Of a stretch of 64,000 bases of DNA, positions 9,324 through 53,478 are shown piece by piece. The translations under genes and the position numbers were made by a program. Under the pieces are notes generated by a model. That model saw only the letters and a list, made by a program, of their open reading frames with translations. It did not search any database and was not told the origin of the DNA. The stretch spans positions 1-64,000 of the forward strand of contig JAAYAX010000004.1 of NCBI GenBank assembly GCA_012719175.1, read 5' to 3'. Every line of letters starts with the position of its first letter. Within the stretch, counting starts at the first letter, position 1. This stretch comes from Methanomassiliicoccus sp. GTDB lineage: Archaea > Thermoplasmatota > Thermoplasmata > Methanomassiliicoccales > Methanomassiliicoccaceae.

Positions 9324-11309
9324 CTACCTTTTCCTTTCCTTTGCCCTTCTTATCCCCAGGGTCAACGCCAAGATGACCGCCAGCGCGATGATGCCCGCTC
9401 CCCACATCGTCCACCCTGATAACGTTACGGGGGAAGGGTCGGTGTCATCTATGGTGCCTCCAGGCTCCGGACCTGAATCCTGCGTCGGGCCTCTCAATAC
9501 CACCATCTTGGTGAGCTCGCTTCTCAAGCCGGCAGAGTCTGTGATGACCAGGGTCACCTTATGGGCCGTGGCGTTCTCATAGGTATGGTCAACGTTCATC
9601 CCACTGGCCATTTGGCCATCCCCAAAGGACCAATTGTAGGTCAACCCCCCTTCCCCTCCATAGGATAGGCTGCCGTCGAAGTGCACGGTGGTACCGTTCA
9701 CAGTATAAGCGAAGGAACTGACAGGAGGAACGATCCACTGCAGGTCCTCGAAAAAGAACGCATAAACGCTGCCCTCGCTCGATGTTAGGTATAGCATGTT
9801 ATCGGAGATAGAAGGCGAGCTGGTTATGATCTGGGAGGGTTCGATGACCTCCTCCCATTCGACGAAGCCATGACTATTGACGGCCACAAGCCGGCCGCTG
9901 TCGCCCGTGGTCACTACCAGGGTCATGCCGTTCATAGCCAGGGGTGATCCGATGGGAACGGAGGGATCCAGAGGAGCGGTCCACTGGGGTTGGCCATCCA
10001 GAGATACCGAGGTCATCCCGTGAGAGGAAACGGAGACCACGCCATCGGGCGTGACCGCCGCAGAGCCTGGAGTGGGAGCGGTGGGGGCTTCCCATATGAG
10101 CGCCCCGTCGTACGATACCGCGGCCATCCCCCCGCCCGTGGGAATGCTATCTGTGTAGTTGGTATAGGTGATGACGACCCTATCGTCCAGTGCCACCGGC
10201 GAGCCGGTTATGGTGCCGCCTATGGTAACGTTCCATACCTCACCGCTCCCATTGCTCGCCATGGCGTACAGATTGCCGTTCTTTCCGCCGACCAGCAGCA
10301 GGTCCTTGAAGGCCGCGGGGGAGGACGCGAAAGTTGAGGGCACATTCATCGACCAGTAGAGGGAGCCGGACCTCGTTACCGCTAACAGCTCCCCGGGGTT
10401 GCCGGATATGATGATGAGGTTGTCGCAGACGATGGGGGATGTGACGTTGTCATCGGTCTTGCCTGTGCAGTAGGTCCATTTAAGATTGCCGTTCTCAGCA
10501 TCGAGCGCGTACAGAACCCCATCGGCGGAGTGAACGTACACTGTCCCGTCCCACAGCAGGGGCGCGGCATCCTGGTGACCCTTCCCCACCTCCACCTGCC
10601 ACAGCACATCGCCGGACTGAGCGAAGCAGAAGAGCTTGGAGCTGGTAACGTACGTGTCCATGACGCTGACGTGGACCCCGCTGCTGAGGGCGTACAGCCG
10701 GCCAGCCCCAGAGATTACGGGAACATCGATGGCCCCATTGCCTAGGTCCAGGCGCCACTTCATCTCCACTCCTGTAGCATTATAGGATAAGGCACTGCCC
10801 GAGTTCAGGAAATCATGCCTCTCGCTTATCCACGGGTCCCGGTGCTGCGGTGTGGCCGTTGGAGGCCCCATGTACGGATACCGCGTGTACATCAAGGCGA
10901 TGGCCTTGGTGGCGAGGGGATCTACATCATCTATCATACTGGAGGTCCAGGTCCACTCGTCGACCTCATCGCTCCACTTGAGGAGTCTCCAGATATCATA
11001 AGGGCACACGGGACAGGAGTAGTTGTAGGTGCCGGTGTAGCCGTCGATGCTCGTGATGTAGTGGCCATTTGGCATTTGATATGAACTGCTCTCGGCCAGG
11101 CCCAACATGGCGGTGGCGTTCTCATACACGTCGAACCCGGTCATGCCCTCGGTCACGGGGACGTCTGCCCATAGTATCCTGCCGTTTCCGAAATCGATCA
11201 GAAAAGCGCATGTCGAGGGCTCCTCCGCAGCTGTGGCTGGTCCGCTGATGCAAAGGACCATCATCGAGGTGATCAGGATCGTTGCCACCGCTCTCTTAAT
11301 TAGACCCAC
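9324..11309 (-). CDS. exported PQQ-type beta-propeller protein with PKD domain and C-terminal anchor
   Basis: The 661-residue protein has a signal peptide (1-27), then a DUF4430-like segment (about 35-125). Propeller blades with repeated 'LYAL/GxLxW' strands cover about 165-530. A PKD domain with a WSFGDG-type motif is at about 535-610, and a C-terminal membrane helix (about 632-652) is followed by a basic tail. This fits a surface protein tethered on the outside of the cell. DUF4430 occurs in cobalamin-binding and other surface proteins; the ligand here is unknown. PQQ-like propellers often do not bind PQQ, and no calcium or PQQ ligands can be judged by eye. It is divergent from the CxCH/NapH-like/CcmF operon across 288 bases. 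Confidence 0.75.
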   Translation of the reverse strand: MGLIKRAVATILITSMMVLCISGPATAAEEPSTCAFLIDFGNGRILWADVPVTEGMTGFDVYENATAMLGLAESSSYQMPNGHYITSIDGYTGTYNYSCPVCPYDIWRLLKWSDEVDEWTWTSSMIDDVDPLATKAIALMYTRYPYMGPPTATPQHRDPWISERHDFLNSGSALSYNATGVEMKWRLDLGNGAIDVPVISGAGRLYALSSGVHVSVMDTYVTSSKLFCFAQSGDVLWQVEVGKGHQDAAPLLWDGTVYVHSADGVLYALDAENGNLKWTYCTGKTDDNVTSPIVCDNLIIISGNPGELLAVTRSGSLYWSMNVPSTFASSPAAFKDLLLVGGKNGNLYAMASNGSGEVWNVTIGGTITGSPVALDDRVVITYTNYTDSIPTGGGMAAVSYDGALIWEAPTAPTPGSAAVTPDGVVSVSSHGMTSVSLDGQPQWTAPLDPSVPIGSPLAMNGMTLVVTTGDSGRLVAVNSHGFVEWEEVIEPSQIITSSPSISDNMLYLTSSEGSVYAFFFEDLQWIVPPVSSFAYTVNGTTVHFDGSLSYGGEGGLTYNWSFGDGQMASGMNVDHTYENATAHKVTLVITDSAGLRSELTKMVVLRGPTQDSGPEPGGTIDDTDPSPVTLSGWTMWGAGIIALAVILALTLGIRRAKERKR

Positions 11310-11597: not shown

Positions 11598-12530
11598 ATG
11601 AGCAGACGACCATACCTTTTGGCTCTGGCCGCCGTAGCTTTCGTAGTTACATTACTCTTAACGCCTGTCACGGGATGGGCCGGGGGTGGCGGTAACAGCA
11701 ATTTTCAGGCAGGCGATTGCAGCTGCCATGGCGCGGTTAGTAGTGCCGTCGTCAGCATGTCCGCGTCCCAGACCATCCTCTCACCGGGCGAGCAGGTTGT
11801 CGTTACCGTCACCGTCACCGGCGGGGAGGCGGAGAACAACCCCCTGGGCGTTATGATAGTTTCCAAGCTGAGCGGGGGGAACACCATGCCCACTGACTAT
11901 GGATGGGCCATAGTGTCCGATACCTGGTCTACCCAGTACAATTACAACGAGATCACTGTCTACAAGGGAAGCGCTGAGTTCGTATGGACCCTGGAAGCGC
12001 CCGAGAAGCCTGGAGTGTACTCCCTGTACGCCAGGATGGAGAACAGCGATAATGGCATAGGATATTACAAGGACTACTCTGCGGGCATGGCCTTCACTGT
12101 CGAAGACGGCTCCTCGTCCGACGATACCTCCACCTTCCTATCGATCCTGACCCCGGTCAACGGGACCACCTTGAGCGGAAGCGTAACCATCGATGCCACC
12201 GTGGCAGCCAGCGAGGCCGCTGACATCACCTCGGCCAACCTTGAGATCGATGGCTCCCCCGTCGAAAGCACGGACGGCTCCTCCTACAAGTGGACGGTGA
12301 ACACCTCTGATCTGCAGGACGGTGAGCACACGATAAAGGTCACTGCCATCACCACGACTGGGGAGACGGTGTCTAAGGAGGTCGATGTGACCGTGAGCAA
12401 CCAGGCAGCGTTGATTGCGCCATTACAGCAGTTCAATCTCACCCTGGCCGATATCGGGTTCTTGACCGTGGTCGGCTTCATATTTGCCATCGGCATTATG
12501 GAGCTGAGGAGAAAGAACAGATGGCATTGA
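11598..12530 (+). CDS. exported membrane-anchored protein with CxCH motif (choice-of-anchor-V-like)
   Basis: The 310-residue protein has a signal peptide (1-28), then Cys41-Ser-Cys43-His44-Gly, a beta-rich domain to about 175, an Ig-like domain (about 180-270) and a C-terminal membrane helix (about 285-303). Position and surroundings resemble the choice-of-anchor V type of domain, where a heme-binding-like CxxCH normally sits just after the signal peptide. Here the spacing is one residue shorter, so covalent heme attachment is uncertain; a metal or a Cys pair is possible. It overlaps the NapH-like gene by ten bases and leads an operon ending in CcmF, which makes it a candidate target of that machinery. 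Confidence 0.7.
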   Translation: MSRRPYLLALAAVAFVVTLLLTPVTGWAGGGGNSNFQAGDCSCHGAVSSAVVSMSASQTILSPGEQVVVTVTVTGGEAENNPLGVMIVSKLSGGNTMPTDYGWAIVSDTWSTQYNYNEITVYKGSAEFVWTLEAPEKPGVYSLYARMENSDNGIGYYKDYSAGMAFTVEDGSSSDDTSTFLSILTPVNGTTLSGSVTIDATVAASEAADITSANLEIDGSPVESTDGSSYKWTVNTSDLQDGEHTIKVTAITTTGETVSKEVDVTVSNQAALIAPLQQFNLTLADIGFLTVVGFIFAIGIMELRRKNRWH

Positions 12531-13801
12531 GGAACCCTCTGAAAAACACCCTCACCCTTGACAGATCCAAGCTCCCTGGCCCCTTGAAGGGCCGCACCCC
12601 TTCGCAGGTTTCCAACGTGCGATTGCCGGAGGCTGAGCAGCCTACCGCAGAAAACGTCAGGCCGAAATTGCCGAAGACGGTGTGGCGGAACAGCGAACGG
12701 TACCTGGGCTTGATGGCAGGCTTCTTCCTGTTCATCGCTCCCTTCGCGGTGTTCACCAGGCTGGCATATGGCATTGTGGGGTCAACCGATGAGGCGACTA
12801 TACACTCGATCTGCTTCAAACTGCCGATGGAGCTTCTGATCAATGGGTCAGTTCCTGCGAGCATCGGCCCTATCGCTCTCGGCACCATGGTCGTGATCCT
12901 AGTGGTCGCGCTCCTCTTTGGTCCTCTATTCTGCGGACGTCTATGCCCGGTAGGGGCCATGAGCGAGATGCTCAGCAGGATAGTCCCGATCCCGGACCGA
13001 TATCGCATGCGGATCCAGAACACCAAGGTAACCGCCAGCCTGCGCTACGGTTTCCTCGCTGGGTTCATCATCGTGGGATGGGCTATGGCCGGCCCGGTGG
13101 CCCAGTGCTCTTACGGGGTGGACCTGGGAAGGTTCTGCAGCCCCGCTCTGATGGAGTACATGTCGCTCGGTCTGTTCTCCACCGCTCCTGAGAACTTCTG
13201 GAACACCGGTGCTGTCCTGACCATGATAGTCTGGCTGCTCCTTGGAGGGATCATGATGGTAGGAGGACGAGGATGGTGCCTGTTCTTCTGCCCCCTGGGG
13301 GCGATATCGGGCATATCCCATGCCATCGGTGCCAAGCTCGGCTTCTATCGCCTGGAATATGAGGCCACCAACTGCCGGAACTGCCGGAAGTGCGAGGTCA
13401 ACTGCCCCATGTGGGCCATAAGTATGGATGGCAAGATCGAGAGGTCGCTGTGCATAGGTTGCAGGGAGTGCGTCAACAACTGCTCCTTCAATGCCTATCA
13501 CGGTGCCTATGGTAGAACCGGAGAGATGATACGAAGGAAGGTGAAGGACGTGGTGTCGAGGGTCCGTATTGCGAGCACTTTCATGCTGGCCGCGGCCACA
13601 GCACCCCTTGCGTACATGTTCACCGGCCCCTGCGCGGCCACGGGATGCGCCGCCTGTCCCCTGGGAGGTGCCTGCGCCGTATCCATCCCTCTTCTATATG
13701 GCGGTTTGCTGCTGTCGCGGACATCCACAAGGTTGAAAGCCGCCTGGTCATCGCTGCGAACCCGGCTCCGGAGGGATGGCCGAGAGATACGGTCGGAGTG
13801 A
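12521..13801 (+). CDS. NapH/NosR-like membrane polyferredoxin
   Basis: The 426-residue membrane protein carries two CxxxCP segments (CGRLCP at about 138-143 and CLFFCP at about 250-255). It also has two ferredoxin-type four-Cys clusters (CRNCRKCEVNCP and CIGCRECVNNC, at about 286-325) and a further Cys-rich stretch near the C-terminus. About five membrane helices surround these. NapH/NosR/RdxA-type proteins pass electrons across or along the membrane through 4Fe-4S centres. Between a CxCH protein and CcmF it could supply electrons for heme or thiol reduction. The C-terminus nearly abuts the CcmF start. Confidence 0.75.
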   Translation: MALRNPLKNTLTLDRSKLPGPLKGRTPSQVSNVRLPEAEQPTAENVRPKLPKTVWRNSERYLGLMAGFFLFIAPFAVFTRLAYGIVGSTDEATIHSICFKLPMELLINGSVPASIGPIALGTMVVILVVALLFGPLFCGRLCPVGAMSEMLSRIVPIPDRYRMRIQNTKVTASLRYGFLAGFIIVGWAMAGPVAQCSYGVDLGRFCSPALMEYMSLGLFSTAPENFWNTGAVLTMIVWLLLGGIMMVGGRGWCLFFCPLGAISGISHAIGAKLGFYRLEYEATNCRNCRKCEVNCPMWAISMDGKIERSLCIGCRECVNNCSFNAYHGAYGRTGEMIRRKVKDVVSRVRIASTFMLAAATAPLAYMFTGPCAATGCAACPLGGACAVSIPLLYGGLLLSRTSTRLKAAWSSLRTRLRRDGREIRSE

Positions 13802-13805
13802 GTCG

Positions 13806-15773
13806 ATGAACCTCGGAACGGTACTACTGGCGGCGGCGGCCGTGTCGGCCCTTGCGGCCAGCGCTGGCGGAGGCCTGTTCCTGGCGCGCGGGAACGGTCG
13901 ATGGGAGCGCATCTCGCGTTACAGCGCCCTCCTGTCGCTAGCCTTCCTCACCGCCGTCTTCATTCTCATGGCCTACCTCTTCCTCACATCCGATCTCAGC
14001 ATCGAGTATGTGTGGTCTCACTCTTCAGTGGGCATAGATCCCTTCTACAAGCTCGTGGGAGTGTGGGCGGGCGGTGAGGGCGGCCTTTTACTGTGGGCCT
14101 GGTTCATGTCCCTCGCCTTGGCCGTGGAGACACTGTTGGAGGGACGGCGGGGGCTCGGTCGTAGGTTCTCTTCAGCTTTTCGGATGGCGGCCGGCAGCAT
14201 GGTGCTCCTCTTCGTACTGATCGTCATGGCGGCGGACCTCTTCGCCCTTACCGAAGCCTCTGAACTTGCACTCCACCCCCAGGGCCTGGGTATGAGCCTG
14301 TCCCTGCAGACCCTGGAGATGGCCCTCCATCCCCCTCTGGTCTTCGCGGCCTACGCGTTCTGCGTGGCCATATTCTCCGCGTCCATAGCCCGCTTCCTTT
14401 CTCTCGAGGATGATTGGCTGAAGGTGGCCCTTCCTTGGGCCAGGTTGGCAGGCCTCCTGCTTGCCCTGGGAATCGTGGTCGGAGCAGTGTGGGCCTACTA
14501 CGAGCTGGGTTGGGGAGGATTCTGGGTATGGGACCCCGTGGAGACCGCCTCCCTACTCCCCATGCTCGTCGTCATGGCCTTCCTGCATGCGCATAGGTCC
14601 CGCGCCGCCGCTCAGGGATATCTGCTGCCTTTACTGGGCGTTCTCTCCTTTGTGTACGTGCTTCTATCCTCGTTCATAACCCGCACTGGCGGACTGTGGG
14701 GGTCCTCGGTGCACACCTACGGCAGCTCGGTGAGCGGCTCTATGGCCTCCCGCTTCCTCACCGTGATCGAGGGGGACAAGAGCATCATGGGCCTGTTCAT
14801 CGTCATCGTGCTGCTCCTTCTCATCGGATGTGTCCTCAGCTACCGCATGTCGAAGAGGGAGAGGGTTAGGGTGGAGGACAGTGTCCTGGGTACGGTTGTC
14901 CTCCACGTGATGTTCTCCGTCCTGCTGCTCCTGCTGCTTATAAAGAACGTGGGTCTGGACCAGGGGGAGAACTTCATGGACTTCACCGAGAAGACCTCGT
15001 ACCTGCTGACGATTATGCTCATAGCGCTCCTGGTGATGGAATCGTACCCCCGGTTGGGACGGCGCAAGGCTCTGATGCTGGGTACGGGCATCGGCCTGGC
15101 ATCGGTCATGCTGGCCGTGGTCGCATTGGTGACAGGAAGCATTCCCCTGCCTGTTGCCATCATCCTCCCGCCGGCCGGGGCGACACTTACTGCATCGTTA
15201 TTCCGGCTCGTAAGAACGGACCGTTCCCCGGCACGGCGTTGGATCAGGAGGGCAGGGCCGATACTGGCCCATGTGGGCCTGGTCATCGTGGTGCTGAGCT
15301 TTCTGATCTCATCGTACTACCAGTCCTCGTTGCCTGAGGACAGGGAGATCATGGGAATAGGGGACCAGGTATCGTTGGGCGACCGCACGGTGAGCCTCCT
15401 GGAGCTCGCGTCGGAACCATGGACATCATCCGCGGGGGTGCCGGGTGAGGTACGCACGGCCACCTTTGAGGTGACCGGCGGAGGGGGGACGCGAGTGGTC
15501 TCGGTGTCCAACCATTATGAGAACGGTTATTCTGGGTCCCTGCTGGTCCATGGAGGCACCCAGGTCCTAAATGGGCTGTCCGAGGACCTCTACCTCAGCT
15601 TCGATTGGATGTCCAACGAATCGGCCTTGGTGCAGGTCCGCCTCCTGCCAATGGTCAGCGGGGTGTGGCTGGGCTCGGCGCTGCTAATCATGGGCATGTC
15701 CATGATGCTCATCGCCACATCGTTCAGGGATGAGATGGACATCATCTCCGATCGGGCGCGCTCTGGAGATTGA
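13806..15773 (+). CDS. ccmF: CcmF-type cytochrome c heme lyase subunit
   Basis: The 655-residue polytopic protein has the CcmF hallmarks. The WWD-type loop WGGFWVWDPVE is at about residues 234-244. A conserved HPP segment is near 175. A TRTG...SVHTY loop near 295-310 corresponds to the external His-containing loop of CcmF. The long soluble C-terminal segment before the last helix is also present. CcmF joins heme to CxxCH apocytochromes outside the membrane. ATG 13806, with GGAGTGA upstream, is preferred to 13776. No ccmA, ccmB, ccmC or ccmE is in the window. Cytochromes are not generally reported from Methanomassiliicoccales, so presence here is notable if that placement is right. Confidence 0.85.
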   Translation: MNLGTVLLAAAAVSALAASAGGGLFLARGNGRWERISRYSALLSLAFLTAVFILMAYLFLTSDLSIEYVWSHSSVGIDPFYKLVGVWAGGEGGLLLWAWFMSLALAVETLLEGRRGLGRRFSSAFRMAAGSMVLLFVLIVMAADLFALTEASELALHPQGLGMSLSLQTLEMALHPPLVFAAYAFCVAIFSASIARFLSLEDDWLKVALPWARLAGLLLALGIVVGAVWAYYELGWGGFWVWDPVETASLLPMLVVMAFLHAHRSRAAAQGYLLPLLGVLSFVYVLLSSFITRTGGLWGSSVHTYGSSVSGSMASRFLTVIEGDKSIMGLFIVIVLLLLIGCVLSYRMSKRERVRVEDSVLGTVVLHVMFSVLLLLLLIKNVGLDQGENFMDFTEKTSYLLTIMLIALLVMESYPRLGRRKALMLGTGIGLASVMLAVVALVTGSIPLPVAIILPPAGATLTASLFRLVRTDRSPARRWIRRAGPILAHVGLVIVVLSFLISSYYQSSLPEDREIMGIGDQVSLGDRTVSLLELASEPWTSSAGVPGEVRTATFEVTGGGGTRVVSVSNHYENGYSGSLLVHGGTQVLNGLSEDLYLSFDWMSNESALVQVRLLPMVSGVWLGSALLIMGMSMMLIATSFRDEMDIISDRARSGD

Positions 15774-41596: not shown

Positions 41597-41856
41597 TACT
41601 TCACCACCGTATAAAAAATCAGCAGACAGATATAATAAACCGGAGTAGCACATTATCAATTTCGGTTTCTATATTTTTTTAATGCATATACTAAACCCAT
41701 GGCACCTCAGAACGGCAGGCGATAATCAAAATGAAAAAGGCGAAAACTGTTAGCGTCTCTCATTCTGGGTAAATGGTTCTAAGGAGTCCAAGTTCCCGGG
41801 CGGTAGCATTCGAGGTAGGATCCGACGGTCAGGGAGGTGTTCAGAGCGGTCAAGAG

Positions 41857-43212
41857 CTACGATCTCGACGCCGAGCGGACCATAGCTCTGCCCCAGGAAG
41901 GGTTCGCCAGGGCATGCTGATGCATGTAGGTGCCCATGGACCTTCTTAACATGATGCCGTCCATGGAGTGACCAATCCCTGTACCACGTTGTATCGAGAA
42001 ACCGTAGGGGCCTGAAGGTATGGGCTCGAGGCGAGAGTAATGGAACTCGTGAGCCCGGAGGTCCAATCCCGGGAAGAGAAAGTTATCGGCGGTCCCCCGC
42101 GCCCTCACATATGCCAGGCCTTGGCGGTCCGCGGTAAGGACGGCACGGGCATCAAAGATGCCTGCCATGCGTCTAAGCTTGCCGAAGGCGTCGATGGAAC
42201 GGCACATCACCATCATGCCCCCGCACTCGCCGTACACGAGGGCACCCTGCTCCGACATCTGCCTCAATCCCTCAAGGAAGTCGCTGTTGCCCTCCAGGAG
42301 CTCGGCATGTACCTCAGGGTAGCCGCCGCCGAGGTACACTGCGTCGCAGTCCGGTAGCCGCTCGCCCTCGGTGGGGCTGAAGAACAGGAGCCTCGCCCCC
42401 GCGGCCTCCAGCGATTCCAGATTCTCCGGGTAATAGAAACAGAATGACTGGTCCCTAGGGACAGCGACCCTCACCTCCTGGGCGACGTCGTTCTGGTATG
42501 GCGATCCCTTGTCCAGCTCGATCTCCGGGGCGGAACCCGCTATCTCCAGGATACGTTCCACATCGATCTCCGCCACCAGGTCCTCGAGGTCCCGTAACAA
42601 TGCCCTGGTGTCCTCTCCCCCGTCCACCGTCATCAGTCCCAGGTGCCTCTCCGGCAGGCTCTCCCGACGCCTCTCGATCGTTCCCATGATCTCCGTACCG
42701 GTGAGCGATTCCACTGCCTCCACCGCCTTTCGCCTATGCCTGTCCCCGCCCACGTTGTTGAGTATCACCCCAGCGATGTTCACCGTCCGGTCGAGCATCT
42801 TGAAGCCCAGCACGTGCGCGGCGGCGCTCTTGGCGAGGCTCCGGGCGTTGATCACCAGGATGACCGGCGCCTGCAGGAACTTCGCGATTTCCGCCGTGGA
42901 TCCCGTGTCCCCGGTCGCGGTGAGCCCATCGTACAGGCCTCTGACCCCCTCCACGACCGCCAGGTCCGCGTCCCTGCTCGACCACCCGAAAAGGTTGAGC
43001 AGGGTACCCTTCTCCATGAAGTAGGAGTCCAAATTCCGTGACGAACGGCCGGTGGCCGCTGTGTGGTACATGGGGTCGATGAAGTCGGGACCCACCTTGT
43101 ACCCCTGCACCTTGCGCCCCCTCGACAGCCGGGACATGAGGCCAGTGGTGATGGCCGTCTTCCCTACTCCGCTGCCTGAGCCAGCGATCACAACCCGGGG
43201 CGGAGCGGTCAT
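41857..43212 (-). CDS. cfbB: Ni-sirohydrochlorin a,c-diamide synthase
   Basis: The 450-residue amidotransferase is of the CobB/CbiA type. A P-loop GSGSGVGKT is at about 10-18 and a C-terminal glutaminase domain has its Cys in GECGG near 340. In the F430 pathway it amidates the a and c side chains of Ni-sirohydrochlorin using glutamine and ATP. The start overlaps the cfbC stop by four bases (ATGA), so the longer frame to 43479 is rejected. It is the last gene of the cfb operon. The stop is TAG, followed by 25 further sense codons with coding-like third positions before the next TAG. Confidence 0.9.
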
Positions 43213-43994
43213 GTCATCTCCCGCAGGATAGCGCGGATCTCCTCGGGGTCCAGGGGACGGGGGACGCTCAGCTCGCGGTTCCCCAGCACCGCCTGGCCCA
43301 GGCGCCGGTAGGCGTCCGCTTGCATGTCCTGCGGCGCCCCCTCTATGACGGTGACCCCCCTGTTCTCGCACTCCCTGACCACCGGGCTGCGCGGAATAAA
43401 GCCGATGAGCCGGGAGCCGATCCGTCCAGCGTACTCGGCCACGGCCTCCTCCTCCCTTAGTACGTCCCGGGAATTGCATATGATCCCGCCCAGGGCCACA
43501 TTGAGGTTCGCCAGACCCCTGGCGATGTTGTTCGCCGCGTACAGGGCAAGGTACTCACCGCTGGTAACGATGTAGACCTCATTGGCGTACCTCTCCCGCA
43601 GGGGGGCGGCGAAGCCCCCACATACGACATCGCCAGGCACGTCATAGATCAGGACGTCTTCCTCCTGCCGGAAGTGGTCCTGGGCCAGCTTCTGGACCGC
43701 CACGATGATCCCCCGTCCCGCGCACCCCACCCCGGCCAGGGGACCGCCGGTCTCCACGCACCTCACTCCCCCAAAGCCCGTGAACACCACCTCCTGGCCC
43801 CCTGTCCTCATCTGCTCCAGGAAGGTGGGTATGCTCCTCCCCTGAAGCAGGGTCATGCTCCCGTCGGACTTGGGATCGCACCCGATGTACCAGGTGCGCA
43901 GACCCGCCTCCGCGAAGGATGCCGCCAAGTTCGCGGAGATGGTGGACTTGCCTATGCCCCCCTTCCCGTAGATGGCCATCTGTCTCATGCCCAT
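43209..43994 (-). CDS. cfbC: F430 reductive cyclase, NifH-like ATPase subunit
   Basis: The 261-residue nitrogenase-iron-protein homologue has P-loop GKGGIGKST at about 10-18. Cys91 (VGCAGRG) and Cys125 (DVVCGG) match the ligands of the 4Fe-4S cluster held between two subunits. With CfbD it transfers electrons for the ATP-driven reduction and ring closure of Ni-sirohydrochlorin diamide to seco-F430. The context of all five cfb genes separates it from true nifH or chlorophyll BchL. ATG 43988 would give the four-base overlap used elsewhere in this operon and may be the true start. Confidence 0.92.
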
Positions 43995-45061
43995 CCCCCG
44001 TCCACGATCTCCCTGATGGTGTTGCCCAGCTCACTGTGCAGCACCCTGCTCGTGCTCATGACATCGGCGTGAGTGTTGACCTCCCCCACCGACAGTGGGA
44101 ACCCTTGCTCTATGTAGTTGCGAAGCTCCCGGGGCTGGTCGGTGACCAGGACGTCCTCCCTCCGTAGTCCGGGCACCGCATGGGGCAGGCCGGTGATGAC
44201 GCGTAGGTCCGCACCGCACTCGCCCAGGGCCCGGGCCGCTGCCTCTCCGGCCACCGGGTACTCGTCCAGGCCTCCGGTGAGGACAACATCCACCACTCCC
44301 GATCCCTTGAGGTCCCTAAGAATGTTGGTGGCGTAACGGCGGATGCGAGGCAGGCCTATGTCTGGATCTAGGTTAGCTATGTGGATCACCTCCCCCCCGA
44401 CCTTATCACGTGCGTACTGCACCGCCCGCATGGTATCGGCGAATCCGTAGGCCGTCTCTTTCTTTGCGTTCAGGGCCACCGCCACCCTCTCCCCCTCACG
44501 CAGGGCTTCCACAATCCTCAGCGCTACTGACATCTTCGTCGCCCCCGGATGGGGCTCGAGGTACTCCTTGCTGGTAAGCCCCCGCTCTCGCTCGATCTGT
44601 GTAGCCCTCAGCAGCATGCTCCTCTGCCGGTCCCTCTCCTTGAAGGTGATCACCCCTCTCTCCGCAGCTACCTCCAGGGTGCGTATGGCCCCGGAGGTGT
44701 TGGGGCCCGAGCAGCCGTGCACATCAATGGGCAGGACCGTGGCGCTCAACCCCGCCTTCTTGACCGAGCCATCGAGGTTCTCGCCTATGATCATGGATGC
44801 GCAGGTGCCCACCACCCCCATGAGGCGGGGGTGGAACATCTCATCCACGTTCCGGAGTATCCTTATAAGCTTCTCCTCGGCCCCGAAGATGAGGTCGTTC
44901 TCCTGCATGCCCGTAGTCATGACCCTCACCCCCGCCTCCTCCAGCCTGCGGGAGGCCATGAAGCCGCAGCCCGCTGGACCGTGCATCACGATGATGTCCG
45001 TGTCCAGGTCCCTGAGCGTGTACATGGCCGCGATGATGGGGTTGGGGCGGGGATGGAGCAC
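43985..45061 (-). CDS. cfbD: F430 reductive cyclase, NifD-like subunit
   Basis: The 358-residue NifD-like protein keeps three likely cluster Cys residues, at 32 (GPAGCG), 87 (GTCAS) and 117 (HGCSG). As a CfbC partner it binds the Ni-tetrapyrrole and performs the six-electron reduction. It begins at GTG with a GAAGGA site, five bases after cfbE stops, and its 3' end overlaps cfbC by ten bases. It is shorter than NifD or NifK, as is usual for the CfbD group, which works as a homodimer. Confidence 0.9.
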
Positions 45062-45066
45062 GTCCT

Positions 45067-46362
45067 TCAGAGGTACCCCTCCTTGATGCAGTGTACTAAA
45101 ACCTCATGCTTCCCCATGACGTCCCCCGGCCCATCGATGCGACGGTAGCTGCTGGACTCCCGTGTCAGGCCGGGCATATTGATGACATACAGCCCCGTCA
45201 CCGAGGGGTGCCTCAAGAGCACCTTGTGGACATCCTCCATGTTTAGCTTCTCGCATATCTTCACGTTGACGGGATCGATGGCCACGCCGATGTCCGTTTG
45301 CGAGTAGTAATGCTCTAGCACATTGATGTTCCAGTCGATGGACCCCGCGCTGACCCCGGGGTTGCGCTCGCGTATGAGGAATCTGCCTCTCTCTCGCGTC
45401 ACGTCCGCCCGGCCGGGGACCCCGTTGAAGGTGGCCAGGGAACTCACGGCCCTCTCCATGTCCACGCCCATCGCCAGGGCGGCCGCCAATCCGCTGGCCA
45501 GGGCGGTGGAGTAGCTTGGCGCCAGCAGGCTGCCGGGGAGCCTGATGACAGACCCTCTCCCGTTCCATCGCACAGTGAGCGATGCTCCCTTACCCAGCTC
45601 CAGACGCCCTGGGAGCGATATCTCCAAGTCACCTCCATCCCCGAAGGTGATTATGCGCGCGGAGGATGGTGCATGGGGGGCCCACATCTGCCTCTCTGGC
45701 TCGGGACAGACCAGCACCTTGGCGGTGGAGGCCATGTGTACCTTTCCATCGAAGGCGCTCCTGGTACCCCCCGCTATGGAGTAGTTGTCGTCGAGCCCAG
45801 TTATGACCGACACATCGGCTAGGCCCGTGCCCCCCAGGCTCACCTCGAACACCCCCACGTCCGCTTTTGGATGCTCCAGGGACAGGGCGAGTATGGAGGG
45901 TGGGGCTATGCTCACCTTATCACAATGCCTGACATGACGCTGGGCGTCCATCGTGCACAGCCCCCTGCTGGTGTGTAGAAGGACCTTTGAGCCGCTGAAG
46001 GCCAGGATGTGGGCGAGGACGTGACATGCCGACGTCTTGCCCCTGGCCCCGGTGACCTCCACCGTCGGTATGGAGAACTCAGCCAGTTCGCCCACAGCCT
46101 GGTGAGCGGTAATCCGCCTATCCAGAGTGGCCTGGCCTATGAAGCGGTCTGGGCAGTGGATGGGCACCACCCCCAGGTCGAAGTTCTCAGGCGGAGCCTT
46201 GATCAGGACGCGGATGCCCGCACGCGTCAGACCGTCCTTCTTCTCAGCGGAAGCGGTACCGTATATGTCCACGGCGGTGACGCTATCGCCGCGGGACGCG
46301 AACACCTGGGCCAGGACCTCCCCACCATGGGTGAGGTCCAGCACCAGGACCTTCTCGCTCAT
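45067..46362 (-). CDS. cfbE: coenzyme F430 synthetase, Mur-ligase-like
   Basis: The 431-residue Mur-ligase-family protein has the ATP loop GARGKTS at about 105-111. It catalyses the last step, ATP-driven closure of the carbocyclic ring F of seco-F430 to give F430. It starts two bases after cfbA stops and lies before cfbD. A Mur ligase in an archaeon without murein and inside a cfb operon leaves little doubt about the role. Confidence 0.9.
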   Translation of the reverse strand: MSEKVLVLDLTHGGEVLAQVFASRGDSVTAVDIYGTASAEKKDGLTRAGIRVLIKAPPENFDLGVVPIHCPDRFIGQATLDRRITAHQAVGELAEFSIPTVEVTGARGKTSACHVLAHILAFSGSKVLLHTSRGLCTMDAQRHVRHCDKVSIAPPSILALSLEHPKADVGVFEVSLGGTGLADVSVITGLDDNYSIAGGTRSAFDGKVHMASTAKVLVCPEPERQMWAPHAPSSARIITFGDGGDLEISLPGRLELGKGASLTVRWNGRGSVIRLPGSLLAPSYSTALASGLAAALAMGVDMERAVSSLATFNGVPGRADVTRERGRFLIRERNPGVSAGSIDWNINVLEHYYSQTDIGVAIDPVNVKICEKLNMEDVHKVLLRHPSVTGLYVINMPGLTRESSSYRRIDGPGDVMGKHEVLVHCIKEGYL

Positions 46363-46364
46363 GT

Positions 46365-46763
46365 TTAAGCCCGCTGCATCCGAGCCCTGGTCCTATCGGC
46401 CAGGATCTGGGCGACGCGCTCATCGTCCCCTATGGGATCGCAGCAGCGGAGGGTGATGTCCTTGCCGTCCACGTTCATCTTCGCCTCGCTCTCTCCCTTT
46501 TTGAGGCCGATCTCCCCGGGTATGTCCTCGGTGAGATGGATACCAGACGCGAGGAAGCATGGCTGGACATATATTATGTTCACGCCCATGGCCACCAGCT
46601 CCCTTATGCCGGTCTTTATGTCCGGTTCGTTCAGCTGCATGAAGGCCGCCGTTACCGGCCCGAACTCCTGCAAGGAAGCCATCCTCTCTGCGGCATTGAC
46701 CACCAGGTCTCTGTTGTGCTGCAGCTTGCTACCATGCCCTACTACAAGTACTCCGTTCTTCAT
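46365..46763 (-). CDS. cfbA: sirohydrochlorin nickelochelatase, small CbiX type
   Basis: The 132-residue short chelatase has metal-binding His10 (VGHGSK) and His76 (SGIHLTED). It inserts nickel (and in related enzymes cobalt) into sirohydrochlorin as a homodimer. It is the first gene of the cfb operon and the branch point between F430, siroheme and cobalamin. A 6-bp hairpin lies about 22 bases before the start, and the shared divergent promoter holds the 17-bp palindrome. Confidence 0.92.
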   Translation of the reverse strand: MKNGVLVVGHGSKLQHNRDLVVNAAERMASLQEFGPVTAAFMQLNEPDIKTGIRELVAMGVNIIYVQPCFLASGIHLTEDIPGEIGLKKGESEAKMNVDGKDITLRCCDPIGDDERVAQILADRTRARMQRA

Positions 46764-46784
46764 CTTCGAAATCCCCTTGTCATT

Positions 46785-46895: not shown

Positions 46896-46916
46896 TAAAT
46901 ACGATGATTGTATTTA
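46896..46916. promoter_or_regulatory. second palindrome TAAATAC-N7-GTATTTA
   Basis: A perfect 7+7+7 inverted repeat directly follows the 17-bp palindrome on the hem side and includes the probable hem TATA box. A further outer pair, CGTAAAT (46861-46867) and ATTTACG (46912-46918), brackets both. Confidence 0.45.
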
Positions 46917-46952
46917 CGTCCTTCACCAATACAGGTTCGACAAGGGGTAACG

Positions 46953-47561
46953 ATGCTACCATTATGGTTAGATCTTAGTAGCCGTAGGGCTGTCGTTTTC
47001 GGCGGCGGCCCCGTGGGAAGGCGGAAGGCCGCTTACTTGGCAGCGGAGGCAGAGGTGGTTGTGGTATCGGAGACCATCGATGGTGACCTGCCCTCCTCAG
47101 TTAGTGCCGTCCAAGGAAGGGCCGAGGACCATCTGGTCGAGATGGTGGGATGGGCGGACCTGGTGGTGGCGGCGACCAACGATCCCGCTCAAAACGAAAA
47201 TATAGCTAGAGAGGCCAAAAGGCAGGGGAAGTGGTGCAACCGTGCTGACGGTGTCTCCACTCTCCTGATACCTTCTGTGGTGGAGAGAGAAAGGTACAAG
47301 GTGGCGGTGTCCACGGAGGGTCGCAGCCCTGGTATGTCCAGGTACCTTCGTCAGGTCCTTGACGAGCACCTGGACCATAAATATGATCTCATGGTCTCCC
47401 TCCAGGAGGAACTCCGTGAGGCGGCCAAGAGGGCGGTCCCGTCCCAAAAGGAACGTGAGCAACGCCTTTGGCAGGTACTCGACGACAGGCGGGTGTGGGA
47501 TCTGCTGGAAAGTGATCCTCAGGAGGCCCGTAGGATCGCCCTTGAGATGGTGGTGAGATAG
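46953..47561 (+). CDS. precorrin-2 dehydrogenase (siroheme synthase N-terminal type)
   Basis: The 202-residue protein has the NAD-binding loop GGGPVG at about 17-22 and the fold of CysG-N/Met8 enzymes. It oxidises precorrin-2 to sirohydrochlorin, the substrate for cfbA. It lacks the methyltransferase part of CysG. The ATG at 46953 is preferred to 46908 on the basis of the family N-terminus. It ends with TAG immediately followed by the ATG of hemA in the same frame. First gene of the tetrapyrrole operon. Confidence 0.9.
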   Translation: MLPLWLDLSSRRAVVFGGGPVGRRKAAYLAAEAEVVVVSETIDGDLPSSVSAVQGRAEDHLVEMVGWADLVVAATNDPAQNENIAREAKRQGKWCNRADGVSTLLIPSVVERERYKVAVSTEGRSPGMSRYLRQVLDEHLDHKYDLMVSLQEELREAAKRAVPSQKEREQRLWQVLDDRRVWDLLESDPQEARRIALEMVVR

Positions 47562-48872
47562 ATGGAGTCCATACTTAGCGCGCATATCACGCACAAGCAG
47601 GCTAGTGTGGCCGACATGGAAAGTTTGGGTAAGGTGGACCCGGAGCTGATGATGAGGAACGCCCTCTCCCTCCCGGGGACCACTGAATGTCTGGTACTTC
47701 GCACCTGCAACCGAATGGAGATTTACCTTGCTACCAGTGACTTGAACGCCACGCGCAAGGGCCTCGAGGACATGATCAACGCCCTGGTACCATTTGACGC
47801 CGAGCAGAACTTGGTGCAGTACCTCAATGGGAAGGAGTCGGTGAGACACATCCTCAGGGTGTCCAGCGGCCTGGAGTCCCTCATCGTGGGGGAGGACCAG
47901 ATCCAATGTCAGGTAAAGGAGGCCTTCGACCTGGCGAAGCGCCATGGCAGTATGGGGCCGGTCCTCACTATAGTGTTCCAGAAGGCCATCTCGGTGGGGA
48001 AGATGGTCCGCAGCAGGACCAACGTCAACAAGGGGTGCGTGTCCATGGGCACGGCAGCCGTGGAGCTTGCCGAGGAGAAGGTGGGTTCCCTCACCGACAA
48101 GAACATCCTGGTGGTGGGGGCGGGGGAGATGGCCGATCTTATTGCCAAGCATCTCGTGGGCAAGGGGCCAAAGGCCGTGTTCGTATCCAACCGCACCTAC
48201 TCCCGGGCGGTGGAGCTTGCCTGGGCGCTCAACGGAAAAGCGGTGCGGTTCGACAGCCTCTTGGAGTTCTTCTCGCGGGCGGACGTGGTTTTGGTGGCCA
48301 CCTCGGCCTCTCATATGATCATAACTCCCGCGCATGTGCGCAAGGCTCAGGACCTCAGGAAGGTGGACGGAAAGATCCTGATTATCGACGTCAGCTTCCC
48401 CCGCAACGTGGATCCACAGGTCGCCTACCTGGAGGGAGTGGAGCTTTACGATATCGACGGCCTGAGAGGAAAGGCCGAGGAAAATCTCCTTAAGCGTCGC
48501 TCCGAGATAAGGAGCGCAGAGCTCATAATCACCCAGGAGCTAGACTCCCTCGGGGAGCGTATGAAGGAGATGAAGGCCAATGAGATCCTCGGCCAGCTTT
48601 ACAGCAAGTACTTCAGCCTCCGGGACCGCGAAGTCAGGAAGGCCTTGAATCGTCTGTCCTCAGGACAGGAGCCTGCTGAGGTCGTCCTCAAGGAGTTCGC
48701 GGACGTGTTGACCAGAAAGTTCCTAGCGGATCCCACCGTGGCGTTGAAGGACGCCTGCCGCATAGGTAACGAGGATGTTTTCGAGAAGGTGCAAAGTTTG
48801 TTCAAATTGGAAGGTGTTTCGATTGTTCCCACAGAGCAGGGCCCGAAGGCTGCGAGCGAGACCGAACATTAG
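47562..48872 (+). CDS. hemA: glutamyl-tRNA reductase
   Basis: The 436-residue enzyme has the catalytic TCNRxE motif with Cys49, the NADPH loop GAGEMADL near 185 and the C-terminal dimerisation helices. It reduces glutamyl-tRNA to glutamate-1-semialdehyde, the committed step of C5-type tetrapyrrole synthesis. It abuts the precorrin-2 dehydrogenase gene with no gap and in the same frame, separated only by one TAG. Its own stop is also TAG, located 50 bases inside hemB. Confidence 0.95.
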   Translation: MESILSAHITHKQASVADMESLGKVDPELMMRNALSLPGTTECLVLRTCNRMEIYLATSDLNATRKGLEDMINALVPFDAEQNLVQYLNGKESVRHILRVSSGLESLIVGEDQIQCQVKEAFDLAKRHGSMGPVLTIVFQKAISVGKMVRSRTNVNKGCVSMGTAAVELAEEKVGSLTDKNILVVGAGEMADLIAKHLVGKGPKAVFVSNRTYSRAVELAWALNGKAVRFDSLLEFFSRADVVLVATSASHMIITPAHVRKAQDLRKVDGKILIIDVSFPRNVDPQVAYLEGVELYDIDGLRGKAEENLLKRRSEIRSAELIITQELDSLGERMKEMKANEILGQLYSKYFSLRDREVRKALNRLSSGQEPAEVVLKEFADVLTRKFLADPTVALKDACRIGNEDVFEKVQSLFKLEGVSIVPTEQGPKAASETEH

Positions 48873-49791
48873 GGACCTGGTCCGGGAGACCGAGCTTTCG
48901 GTCCATGACCTGGTGTACCCAATATTCGTTAACGAGAACCTGTCCTCTCCCAGGGAGATTGGTTCAATGCCAGGGGTCCTATCCCTGCCCATCTCACGGG
49001 CGGGGGAGGAGGCCCGATGCGCCGAAAACCTGGGAATCCCGGCAGTGCTCCTCTTCGGAGTACCCAGCAAAAAGGACCCTCGAGGGACTCCCGCGGACGA
49101 CCCCGATGGGGTCGTGCAGAGGGCGATAAGGGAGATGAAGAGGGCATCGGACATCACCATCATCACGGACCTGTGCCTCTGCGAGTACACCGACCACGGC
49201 CACTGTGGAATCATTAACAAAGACGACGTCGATAACGATGCCACCCTCCAGAGGTATGCGGAGGTAGCTGTGAGCCAGGCTAGGGCTGGGGCGGACATGA
49301 TCGCCCCCTCAGGTATGATGGACGGGCAAGTGGCAGCGATAAGGGATGGGTTGGACCAGGCAGGCTTCGAGAGCATACCCATCATGTCCTACGCCGCCAA
49401 GTATGCCTCCTCTTTCTACGGTCCCTTCCGGGACGCCGCCGAGAGCACCCCCCAGCACGGAGACCGAAGGAGCCATCAGATGGACCCGGGGAACGCAAGG
49501 GAGGCGTTCCGGGAGATGAGCTTGGACCTCGAGGAGGGAGCGGACATCCTCATGGTGAAGCCGGCCTTGCCGTACCTGGACATAGTACGGAGGGCCCGGG
49601 ATAAGTTCAATGTCCCCATTGCCGCGTACCAGGTAAGCGGGGAGTACTCGATGATAAAGGCTGCTGCCGCCAACGGGTGGATCGATCACGACGGGGCCAT
49701 GATGGAGTCCTTGCGGTCGATAAAGCGTGCGGGGGCGGAGATCATCATCACCTACTTCGCCAAGGAGGCGGCGAGGATGGTATCGTCATGA
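48823..49791 (+). CDS. hemB: porphobilinogen synthase
   Basis: The 322-residue enzyme condenses two 5-aminolevulinate molecules. Visible are the metal-binding Cys/His cluster CLCEYTDHGHCG at about 122-133 and the Schiff-base lysines in YAAKYAS (about 190) and MVKPALPYLD (about 245). The TTG at 48823 is chosen because GGAAGG lies at the right distance and translation from there gives the standard family start (FPxxRxRRLR, then the VRET block). It therefore overlaps hemA by 50 bases. Confidence 0.95.
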   Translation: MFPQSRARRLRARPNIRDLVRETELSVHDLVYPIFVNENLSSPREIGSMPGVLSLPISRAGEEARCAENLGIPAVLLFGVPSKKDPRGTPADDPDGVVQRAIREMKRASDITIITDLCLCEYTDHGHCGIINKDDVDNDATLQRYAEVAVSQARAGADMIAPSGMMDGQVAAIRDGLDQAGFESIPIMSYAAKYASSFYGPFRDAAESTPQHGDRRSHQMDPGNAREAFREMSLDLEEGADILMVKPALPYLDIVRRARDKFNVPIAAYQVSGEYSMIKAAAANGWIDHDGAMMESLRSIKRAGAEIIITYFAKEAARMVSS

Positions 49792-51062
49792 CCGGAAGAT
49801 CCGAGTGCCTCTATCATAGGGCGCAGAGGGTGATGCCGGGAGGCGTATCCTCTCCGGTGCGGGCGTACCAGCCCTATCCCCGCTACATCGCCGAGGCCCA
49901 GGGGGACCGGATAATCGATGTGGACGGCAATGAGTACATCGACTACTGCATGGCCTTCGGCCCCCTCATACTAGGCCACGCTCACCCGTCCGTCGTCAGC
50001 GCCCTGCAGGCCCAGGCGGGGAAGGGAACGCTCTACGGGGCCCCCATCGAGGCCGAGGCCCAGTTCGCCGAGGACATATCCAGGGAGTACCGCTCCATGG
50101 AGATGCTGCGCTTTGTGAGCACTGGCACCGAGGCGACCATGCACGCCCTGAGGCTGGCGCGCGGCCACACCGGCAGGAAGAAGGTCCTGAAGTTCGAGGG
50201 TTGCTTCCACGGGGCCCACGATGCAGTCCTGGTCAAGGCCGGCTCCGGGGCCACAACCCACGGCGCTCCCAACTCCCTGGGTGTCCTGGAGGAGGTCGCT
50301 TCCAATACTCTCTTGGCAACGTTCAATGATCTGGGCACGGTGGAGCAAGCGCTGAGGGCGAACCGGGGAGAGGTGGCCGCGGTCATCGTCGAACCGGTCA
50401 TGGGCAACGTGGGTCCGGTTCTCCCCTCCGAGGGCTTCATCCAGGGGCTGAGGGAGCTGACGACCGCACACGACACTCTCCTGATCTTCGACGAGGTCAT
50501 CACCGGCTTCCGGCTTTCTATGGGCGGGGCCCAACGTCGCTACGGGATCACCCCGGATATAACCACTCTGGGTAAGATAGCAGGCGGGGGGATGCCCATC
50601 GGAGTGTTCGGCGCCTCCGAGGAGATCATGAGCAAGATATCCCCGCTGGGAAAGGTCTACCAGGCAGGTACATTCTCTGGGAATCCCATGTCCCTCGCCG
50701 CGGGTATGGCCACCGTGAAAGAGCTGCGCGCTCAAGGCCACGAGGGTCTGGACCGCAAGGGCGATCTGATGCGACGTGGCCTTGAGGAGGCGCTTGGCGA
50801 CATGAAAGTGCCGCATCAGGTGGTAGGCATCGGCTCCATGTTCCAGCTCTTCCTCTCGTCCGCCCCGGTGCGGAACTACCGCGAGGCGTTGTCCTCGGAC
50901 AGCGCCATGTTCGACCGCCTCTTCCGCCGCCTTCTGGAGGAGGGTATCTACCTGGCACCCTCGCAGTTCGAGACCAACTTCCTCTCCACGGCTCACACCG
51001 ATGAGGACATTAAAAGAACGGTGGACTCCTTCGCCACATCCCTGAGCGAGGTGTCGGCATGA
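49788..51062 (+). CDS. hemL: glutamate-1-semialdehyde 2,1-aminomutase
   Basis: The 424-residue PLP enzyme shifts the amino group of glutamate-1-semialdehyde to give 5-aminolevulinate. The PLP lysine is in TLGKIAGGG at about 264, and DEVITGFR with the cofactor-binding Asp is at about 237. The ATG overlaps the hemB stop by four bases, so the longer frame to 49677 is rejected. Its stop overlaps hemC by four bases. Confidence 0.95.
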   Translation: MTGRSECLYHRAQRVMPGGVSSPVRAYQPYPRYIAEAQGDRIIDVDGNEYIDYCMAFGPLILGHAHPSVVSALQAQAGKGTLYGAPIEAEAQFAEDISREYRSMEMLRFVSTGTEATMHALRLARGHTGRKKVLKFEGCFHGAHDAVLVKAGSGATTHGAPNSLGVLEEVASNTLLATFNDLGTVEQALRANRGEVAAVIVEPVMGNVGPVLPSEGFIQGLRELTTAHDTLLIFDEVITGFRLSMGGAQRRYGITPDITTLGKIAGGGMPIGVFGASEEIMSKISPLGKVYQAGTFSGNPMSLAAGMATVKELRAQGHEGLDRKGDLMRRGLEEALGDMKVPHQVVGIGSMFQLFLSSAPVRNYREALSSDSAMFDRLFRRLLEEGIYLAPSQFETNFLSTAHTDEDIKRTVDSFATSLSEVSA

Positions 51063-51934
51063 TCCTCGGCACCCGCGGCAGCGCCCTGGCGCTGGCCCAG
51101 ACGAGGATGGTCATGGAGATGCTGGTGGCCCGCAACCCGGACCTGGAGGTAGAGGTGCGGGAGGTCAGGACCATCGGCGACAGGGTGACCGATCGGCCCC
51201 TGTCCACGCTTGGCGGCTACGGGGCCTTCACCAAGGAGCTTGACCAGCGGATAGTGGATGGGGAGATAGACGTTGCTGTCAACAGCCTCAAGGACATGCC
51301 TGTGGACCTTACCCCGGGGACGATGATGGCGGCGGTCCTCCCCAGGGGGCCAGTGGAGGACATGCTCCTATCCGAGGTACCCCTACCAGAGCTTCCCCAA
51401 GGAGCGGTGGTGGGCTCGTCCAGCGTGCGGCGTCGCTCGCTGCTGGAGGCCAAAAGGCCGGACCTGAACGTTCGGGACCTGCGCGGGAACGTGCCCACGC
51501 GCATAAAGAAGTGGAAGGACGGACAGTACGACGCCATAGTGCTGGCCCGGGCAGGGCTAGAGCGGCTGGGCATCACGGAGAAGGGCTATGTCCTGGACCC
51601 CGAGGAGTTCGTTCCTGCCCCGGGCCAGGGGGCCATCGCCCTGGTATGCGCAGAGGACAGTCCTTATCTGCTTGACCTACAGGCTTTAAACCATGAACGG
51701 ACGAGAGCAGAGGTGGAGGCGGAGCGCTACATACTAAAGTCCCTGGGCGGTGGCTGCTCGGTACCCATAGGGGTGTGGGCATCAATGCTCGGGAGCGAGA
51801 TCAGGATAGTCGGTACGGTGACGGGAGGTGCTCACGTGAAAGGTGTTCATATTGACCAGAATGTGCCATTGAGCGATATGGGAACGGAGCTGGACAGGAT
51901 CGCTGACCTGTTGCGTCCAGCGGTGAGGGGATAA
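51059..51934 (+). CDS. hemC: hydroxymethylbilane synthase
   Basis: The 291-residue enzyme polymerises four porphobilinogens to hydroxymethylbilane. It begins with the typical RGSALALAQT block (about 5-14). The dipyrromethane cofactor Cys is seen in GGGCSVP at about 236. The start overlaps hemL by four bases and cobA follows three bases after its stop. Confidence 0.95.
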   Translation: MILGTRGSALALAQTRMVMEMLVARNPDLEVEVREVRTIGDRVTDRPLSTLGGYGAFTKELDQRIVDGEIDVAVNSLKDMPVDLTPGTMMAAVLPRGPVEDMLLSEVPLPELPQGAVVGSSSVRRRSLLEAKRPDLNVRDLRGNVPTRIKKWKDGQYDAIVLARAGLERLGITEKGYVLDPEEFVPAPGQGAIALVCAEDSPYLLDLQALNHERTRAEVEAERYILKSLGGGCSVPIGVWASMLGSEIRIVGTVTGGAHVKGVHIDQNVPLSDMGTELDRIADLLRPAVRG

Positions 51935-51937
51935 GCT

Positions 51938-52681
51938 ATGCCCGGAAAGGTTCACCTTATAGGGGCGGGTCCCGGGGATGCCGGCCTCATCACCGTCAAG
52001 GGAATGGAGATGCTGAGGCAGGCCGATGTGGTGGTTTACGACGAGCTGGCCAACCACGACCTTCTCCAATATGCCCGTACCGGGGCCAAGCTAATAGATG
52101 TGGGGAAGCAGGGTGGACGCCATAAGGTCCCCCAGGACGGCATAAACCAGATCATCGTTGATGAGGCCATGGCCGGTCACTGGGTGGTAAGGTTGAAGGG
52201 CGGTGACCCCTTCCTCTTCGGCCGGGGCGGGGAGGAGGCGGAGGAGCTCCGGAAGGCCGGGATCGATGTACACGTGGTGCCTGGGGTCACCTCGGCCATC
52301 GCAGCCCCGGCGCTGGCAGGGATCCCGGTGACCCACCGGGACCATGCACCCATGGTCACCTTCGTAACCGGTCACGAGCGCGGGGACCGTTCAGACGAGC
52401 GCATCGACTGGGGCGTGCTCGCCCGCACCGGGGGCACCATAGTGATACTGATGGGCATGAGCAACCTGGAGCATAATATGTCGCGCCTCATGGAGGGGGG
52501 CATGAACCCGGCCACCCCTGTGGGGGTCATCCACCGTGGTTCGACACCTCAGCAGAGGGTGGTGATCTCCACCCTATCAGAGGTGGTGAAGGACTGCCGG
52601 GACCAGGGCGTGGGCTCTCCCTCGGTCGTGGTCGTGGGCGATGTGGTGGGCTGTTATGACCGGCTGGGTGATCTGCGATGA
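51938..52681 (+). CDS. cobA: uroporphyrinogen-III C-methyltransferase (SUMT)
   Basis: The 247-residue SAM-dependent enzyme has the IGAGPGD loop at about 6-12, the GGDPFLFGRGGEE block at about 88-100 and the MGM segment near 172. It dimethylates uroporphyrinogen III at C2 and C7 to give precorrin-2, the entry point for F430, siroheme and cobalamin. It sits between hemC and hemD with overlaps or minimal gaps, so the operon ends in precorrin-2 rather than in heme. Confidence 0.95.
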   Translation: MPGKVHLIGAGPGDAGLITVKGMEMLRQADVVVYDELANHDLLQYARTGAKLIDVGKQGGRHKVPQDGINQIIVDEAMAGHWVVRLKGGDPFLFGRGGEEAEELRKAGIDVHVVPGVTSAIAAPALAGIPVTHRDHAPMVTFVTGHERGDRSDERIDWGVLARTGGTIVILMGMSNLEHNMSRLMEGGMNPATPVGVIHRGSTPQQRVVISTLSEVVKDCRDQGVGSPSVVVVGDVVGCYDRLGDLR

Positions 52682-53478
52682 GGCTGGCGGTCATGCGCCC
52701 ACAGGACAAGCTCGACGAGTCTCTCCAGATGGCCAGGGAGAAGGGTTTGGAGGTGATCGCAGCGTCCCCACTGCTGGTGAGCCCTATAGACGGTGTTGAG
52801 GGTGCTACCATGATCGATATGCTTAAGGAGGGCCCCGCCGAGGTGGTGGTCCTGACCAGCACCACGGGGGTGGAGATCCTGGACAGGATATCGGCGCAGG
52901 GAGGTGAGGACCTGGCCTCAATATTGTCAGGAAGCTGCAACATCGCCATCGGGCCGCTCACGGCCAAGGCCATGACGGACAGGGGGATAAGGGTCGACCT
53001 AATTCCCGAAGAACACTCCTCTGAGGGCCTGGTCCGGCAGATGGGGCGGCAGCTGGCAGGCAAGAGGGTGTACCTGCTCCGTTCGTCCCATGGGGAGAGG
53101 TCCCTGTTCGACGGGCTGGTGGAGTGCGGGGCAGAGGTGACGGAGAGAGTCCTGTACCGACTGATCCCGAACCTCGGCAGCCTGGAGCTCAAGTACCTCA
53201 TCGATGAGAGCATGGCAGGGAGGGTGGACGCCTTCGCCTTCACATCAACCCTCTCGGCGGAGACCTACATCAACGCCGCTGAGCTGTCATACCCGCGGGA
53301 GGACATAATCGCCATGCTCAACTCTCACCTGGTCGCGGCCATGGGAGGACCGACTAGGAGGAAGCTGGAAGGGATGGGCATCCGTGTCTCCGTGGTGCCG
53401 GCCAGTGCCACCTTCGCGGCCATGCTAGAAGGGATAACCACATGGAGAGCGCGGTCCCCTACACCTACAGCCTTCTAG
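52678..53478 (+). CDS. hemD: uroporphyrinogen-III synthase
   Basis: The 266-residue protein has the two-lobed pattern of HemD: a TSTTGVE segment near 60 and an FTSTLSAETY segment near 183. It closes and inverts ring D of hydroxymethylbilane. HemD is poorly conserved in general, and the context (overlapping cobA, last in the hem operon) carries much of the call. It ends in TAG and is convergent with the cbiO gene. Confidence 0.9.
   Translation: MRLAVMRPQDKLDESLQMAREKGLEVIAASPLLVSPIDGVEGATMIDMLKEGPAEVVVLTSTTGVEILDRISAQGGEDLASILSGSCNIAIGPLTAKAMTDRGIRVDLIPEEHSSEGLVRQMGRQLAGKRVYLLRSSHGERSLFDGLVECGAEVTERVLYRLIPNLGSLELKYLIDESMAGRVDAFAFTSTLSAETYINAAELSYPREDIIAMLNSHLVAAMGGPTRRKLEGMGIRVSVVPASATFAAMLEGITTWRARSPTPTAF

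Follow-up and report, generated by a model that had tools for sequence, protein, structure and literature searches.

A Methanomassiliicoccus gene unit combining a CcmF altered at both channel tryptophans with a NapH-like polyferredoxin and an exported CSCH protein

The genus Methanomassiliicoccus carries a conserved three-gene unit encoding an exported, anchored protein with a CSCH motif, a NapH-like membrane polyferredoxin, and a CcmF in which both channel tryptophans have been replaced. The unit was analyzed in a 64,000-nucleotide stretch of contig JAAYAX010000004.1 from Methanomassiliicoccus sp. (assembly GCA_012719175.1, positions 1 to 64,000; referred to as the window), and the coordinates are listed in Table 1. 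We tentatively read the unit, at somewhat less than an even chance, as a stripped-down, remodelled System I module in which a CcmE-independent, ferredoxin-fed CcmF would load scavenged heme onto its partner.

Table 1. Positions of the unit, its key residues and the tetrapyrrole genes in the window, with a related-locus membrane protein (locus handles given).
Feature	Position	Strand	Remarks
Exported anchored CSCH protein, 310 aa	11598..12530	+	Signal peptide, anchor-V-like beta domain, Big_7 Ig domain, C-terminal TM helix
C41-S-C-H44 codons	11718..11729	+	In a disordered stretch that links the signal peptide to the beta-sandwich; GDCSCHG invariant across the genus, His across the family
NapH-like membrane polyferredoxin, 426 aa	12521..13801	+	Extra 4-Cys C-terminal domain
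Two CxxxCP (C138/C142, C253/C257) and two [4Fe-4S] motifs (C285-C295, C311-C321)	12932..13483	+	
C-terminal C371/C376/C379/C385 motif	13631..13675	+	
CcmF ORF	13776..15773	+	Probable start ATG 13806; orthologues begin at the equivalent site
P-His1, H185 (E. coli H173)	14328..14330	+	
G226 replacing channel Trp (E. coli W216)	14451..14453	+	Gly in all genus CcmFs
WWD heme-handling loop	14490..14552	+	Intact
M263 replacing channel Trp (E. coli W253)	14562..14564	+	Met, Thr, Leu or Phe across the genus; all 33 other CcmFs keep Trp
TM-His1, H271 (E. coli H261)	14586..14588	+	
P-His2, H313 (E. coli H303)	14712..14714	+	
TM-His2, H499 (E. coli H491)	15270..15272	+	
cfbB, cfbC, cfbD, cfbE (coenzyme F430)	41857..46362	-	Tetrapyrrole this cell does make
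met8-hemA-hemB-hemL-hemC-cobA-hemD operon	46908..53478	+	No ahb at either end; compare L132
~230-aa two-His membrane protein	L102:15206-15907, L103:12940-13620, L031:8323-9024, L111:6495-7169		

CcmF, its channel and the linked polyferredoxin

The three plus-strand ORFs of the unit overlap one another, and the nearest records to the unit were from Methanomassiliicoccus. Wherever a genus genome had the locus uncut, the trio kept the same order, and the neighbours were conserved too. In comparison with the nearest species (L002), dN/dS was 0.08, 0.13, and 0.12 for the three genes, respectively, indicating that CcmF, like its two partners, is under strong purifying selection. CcmF was found in 12 of the 147 genomes of the order (all seven of the genus and five of another family), a count that takes in one weak fragment with an internal stop (G130). 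The polyferredoxin was present in nine of these 12 genomes and in none of the other 135 (hypergeometric probability ~3e-12, relatedness ignored), supporting a genetic tie between it and CcmF. The divergent neighbour in every genus locus checked was an exported PQQ-like beta-propeller protein with a PKD domain and a TM anchor (window 9324-11309, minus strand), which could be a functional partner or reflect just synteny. Elsewhere in the window, two very large PAS/GAF sensor kinases of 1841 and 1177 aa (17190-22715 and 38126-41659, both minus strand) and a LuxC-like acyl-CoA reductase adjoining an epimerase, here in an archaeon (6015-7655), were noted.

The preliminary description had recognized CcmF from its WWD loop, and this identification was upheld by profiles, the tree, the intact loop, and the four histidines. 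The protein scored 162 bits against TIGR03145 and 159 bits against TIGR00353 (E 1e-46 for these two models), both under the curated cut-offs, and 82 bits against PF01578, above the cut-off; it matched Thermus thermophilus CcmF (6zmq) with an E value of 6e-23. The CcsB model reached only 41 bits compared with 162 bits for NrfE, and a ResB match of 18 bits was under the cut-off. In the tree, the window protein fell inside the CcmF/NrfE clade, split from CcmC at 100/99, and not outside CcmF/CcsA. Judged by its sequence, it is a genuine CcmF. Histidines 173, 261, 303, and 491 of E. coli CcmF are known or predicted heme ligands (PMC3884852). All four, together with the WWD loop, were invariant in the genus, and these ligands suggest that the window CcmF still binds heme at the transmembrane and WWD sites.

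The channel is altered. The position of W216 was Gly in all seven genus CcmFs, and that of W253 was Met, Thr, Leu, or Phe; among the 33 CcmFs from outside the genus, W253 was Trp in every one and W216 was Trp in 28. The double loss is therefore confined to Methanomassiliicoccus (7 genus versus 33 other CcmFs). Five of 73 columns conserved elsewhere were altered genus-wide, both channel tryptophans included, and the chance of drawing both in a random set of five was ~0.004, a post hoc figure from one clade. W216 and W253 (W214 and W251 in T. thermophilus) have two proposed roles, passing electrons on from the TM heme to the outer heme and plugging the channel; CcsBA, through whose channel heme moves, has neither, and what reduces the TM heme of CcmF is generally not known (PMC10663686). 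The loss is not a simple outcome of losing CcmE, because two genomes of another family (G129 and G134, f6) in which CcmE was not detected keep both tryptophans.

The polyferredoxin had also been proposed earlier to be of the NapH/NosR type, and the comparison bore this out. NapH was its best NCBIfam match at 50 bits, which does not reach the curated cut-off of 213-234 bits; both CxxxCP and both [4Fe-4S] motifs aligned with E. coli NapH, and these motifs were invariant within the polyferredoxin set A2. It resembles NapH/NosR-type membrane ferredoxins in these motifs but differs in its extra 4-Cys C-terminal domain and in its linkage to CcmF instead of NapG/NapC or NosZ. In G129 and G125 the counterpart of the C-terminal part has a small ORF of its own, suggesting that this domain is probably a fused subunit. 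The structure model of the polyferredoxin was uninformative (pLDDT 36).

The exported CSCH protein

The protein encoded upstream of the polyferredoxin scored 39.7 bits against the choice-of-anchor V model NF041895, just under the cut-off of 42. It shares with this family an N-terminal Cys/His motif ahead of a beta-sandwich, whereas its motif spacing is altered. GDCSCHG was invariant across the genus orthologues. The CxxCH heme attachment motif does not occur in the protein, and all genus orthologues have CSCH. The export signal and the motif thus stand as first described; the accompanying statement that related anchored proteins have CxxCH holds only in part, since CxxCH was found in one relative and the others have CxxxCH, Cx6CH, CH without the first Cys, Cx5H, CSFH, or CSAH.

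Proteins of this family adjoin CcmF in other families as well (G127, G134, G445, and G338), and their motifs can be sorted by neighbour. Those beside the polyferredoxin carry DCSCH (the genus), DCSFH, DCSAH, or SCSAH, so that the Cys at -1 is not kept in the polyferredoxin-linked relatives of the CSCH protein; those beside a membrane protein of ~230 aa carry CDNCH, CSTDCH, Cx6CH, CH alone, or Cx5H. This ~230-aa protein, which has two invariant His (LHxLTxExHxGxL) and belongs to no Pfam family, follows the anchor-V protein in lineages lacking the polyferredoxin. Across the CSCH-protein family the motif His is invariant and the Cys adjoining it varies, indicating that CSCH is not simply a compressed CxxCH. 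Because CSFH or CSAH stands at this site in the closest relatives linked to the polyferredoxin, two-thioether heme attachment at CSCH is uncertain, which weakens part of the earlier proposal of an unusual heme acceptor; the site may instead hold heme by one thioether or non-covalently, or a metal.

The AlphaFold model of the protein was modest (pLDDT 65), with the motif disordered and pLDDT low at residues 21-47; the alignments behind the structure models were shallow, comprising window and related-locus sequences only. A fold search with this model returned generic Ig-like folds only, a plasmid search for homologues matched the Ig domain alone, and a literature search for CXCH together with Ccm gave no match.

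Heme supply and relatives with full System I

The window's genome (2.42 Mb, 99.6% complete) was searched for the remaining heme-handling genes. CcmF was present, and of the other ccm genes that the preliminary description had suggested looking for, CcmE (PF03100) was not found by profile search, nor was CcmC or CcsA, because the genome holds a single PF01578 protein; ccmA and ccmB were not beside the unit, a statement that covers the locus only. Profile searches found no AhbC or AhbD scoring as high as those of heme makers, no ferrochelatase, and no paired-CxxCH protein (PF09699). The F430 and siroheme-stage gene blocks are divergent (window 41857-53478), and the tetrapyrrole operon stops at the siroheme/F430 stage. 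A Thermoplasmata genome with a full ccm operon (G338) has the same tetrapyrrole gene order, but there the genes are preceded by ahbD and ahbAB and followed by ahbC. On gene content, the heme branch appears to be absent from the window's organism, and heme making seems to be beyond it. Of the two findings that the preliminary description had named as refuting, the lack of heme synthesis and cytochromes is thus largely borne out by the profile searches, the bare hem operon, and the literature's view of the order (PMC10804542), whereas a CcmF outside CcmF/CcsA is not; the earlier picture of a compact archaeal cytochrome-making unit is not supported.

AhbD-like matches of ~300 bits in G018, G015, and G001 were considered as signs of heme synthesis and rejected, the copies in G018 and G001 being isolated radical SAM proteins of 490-510 aa with no ahb neighbours in the two loci read (L131:7812-9329 and L133:7104-8567). 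A second apparent heme puzzle is G125 of the Methanomassiliicoccales: its ccmABCEF operon is full (L030), but neither AhbC/AhbD nor ferrochelatase was detected in this genome.

Within the Thermoplasmatota, the ccmABCEF operon is complete in G125 and in G445 and G338 (L102/L103). The latter two hold the best-scoring CcmFs outside the order, and their operons contain ccmA, ccmB, ccmC, a CcmE-like protein, and a nine-CxxCH cytochrome; G338, the one genome checked, has a complete ahb heme cluster. Since the closest outside CcmFs lie in such operons and the checked genome has ahb, the ancestry of the unit is cytochrome assembly.

Possible roles of the unit

The unit is best described by its likeness to known systems. 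As in Systems I and I* (CcmABCEF, CxxxY CcmE, no CcmH), the window CcmF has the WWD loop, P-His1/2, and TM-His1/2, and in Thermoplasmata relatives the operon is full and its CcmE-like protein has a Cys motif at the end; in contrast, here CcmC and CcmE were not found, both channel tryptophans are lost, a polyferredoxin stands in the operon, and CSCH replaces CxxCH. NrfE is the best-scoring NCBIfam model for CcmF (162 bits, far under the 927 cut-off) and NrfEFG is likewise a special lyase for an odd motif, but no NrfF/NrfG lies beside CcmF and the candidate client has CSCH rather than CxxCK. System II (CcsBA/ResBC) also uses one heme-handling integral membrane protein without CcmE and a channel without Trp (PMC10663686), whereas the window protein is CcmF and not CcsA by sequence and tree, and no ResB/CcsB partner was seen.

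In the remodelled-CcmF reading, the genus CcmF would work with neither CcmC nor CcmE to deliver heme, and the NapH-like polyferredoxin would pass electrons from cytosolic ferredoxin to CcmF, standing in for quinol, which is thought to be unused by this organism. The anchored CSCH protein would be the client outside the membrane, receiving heme or being reduced through it. The heme would probably come from the surroundings by scavenging, because the genome encodes none of the known terminal steps of heme synthesis. This reading best explains why the ligands are preserved, the genes linked, and others missing; counted against it are the Cys at -1, which relatives do not keep, the place of the motif in a disordered tail of a modest model, and the two f6 genomes that keep both tryptophans although CcmE was not detected in them. 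A bolder form, which we consider rather unlikely, is that the CcmF of a heme auxotroph has become, by convergence, a CcsBA-like single-protein heme transporter/synthase: Trp loss would open the channel between the two heme sites, CcmABCE would be unneeded, the ferredoxin-fed NapH-like partner would replace the electron relay, and the CSCH protein would be the client.

The NapH-type partner would also suit a trans-membrane electron conduit that is not a lyase, with electrons running from ferredoxin through the polyferredoxin and the CcmF hemes and ending on the CSCH protein or on acceptors outside, and with the Cys/His site holding a metal or non-covalent heme. A client family with variable Cys and invariant His, and the pairing of other members with the two-His membrane protein in place of the polyferredoxin, are consistent with such a wire; however, losing two tryptophans proposed as the relay from TM heme to P-heme would harm it, and the WWD loop is retained, so that we regard it as unlikely. 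The same invariant histidines and WWD loop, held under purifying selection, argue against a CcmF scaffold re-used without heme, in which CSCH would be a site for Cu, Fe, or thiol-redox chemistry that the polyferredoxin keeps reduced. CxC-H resembles metal sites and no heme synthesis genes were found, yet we think this quite unlikely. If heme were instead made by some unrecognized pathway or out of siroheme intermediates, the unit could be an ordinary minimal cytochrome c maker; the siroheme branch (met8, cobA) is in the window, but the genes for AhbA/B, AhbC, and AhbD are missing beside the operon where G338 has them, AhbC/AhbD were not found in the genome, and no CxxCH cytochrome family matched, making this improbable. 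That the unit is a disappearing remnant of a System I now lost, as the absent ccmC and ccmE and the full operons of related lineages might imply, is very improbable given dN/dS of ~0.1 in all three genes and a unit that is whole wherever a genus genome has the locus uncut.

The order Methanomassiliicoccales is treated as cytochrome-free (PMC10804542), and a methanogen survey that covered 12 of its genomes reported neither CcmC nor CcmF (PMC8351635). The remodelled CcmF unit is not described in the literature surveyed. A conserved CcmF with predicted heme ligands in the type genus calls that cytochrome-free view into question, and a natural double-tryptophan variant of CcmF offers a test case for heme and electron movement in cytochrome c synthases.
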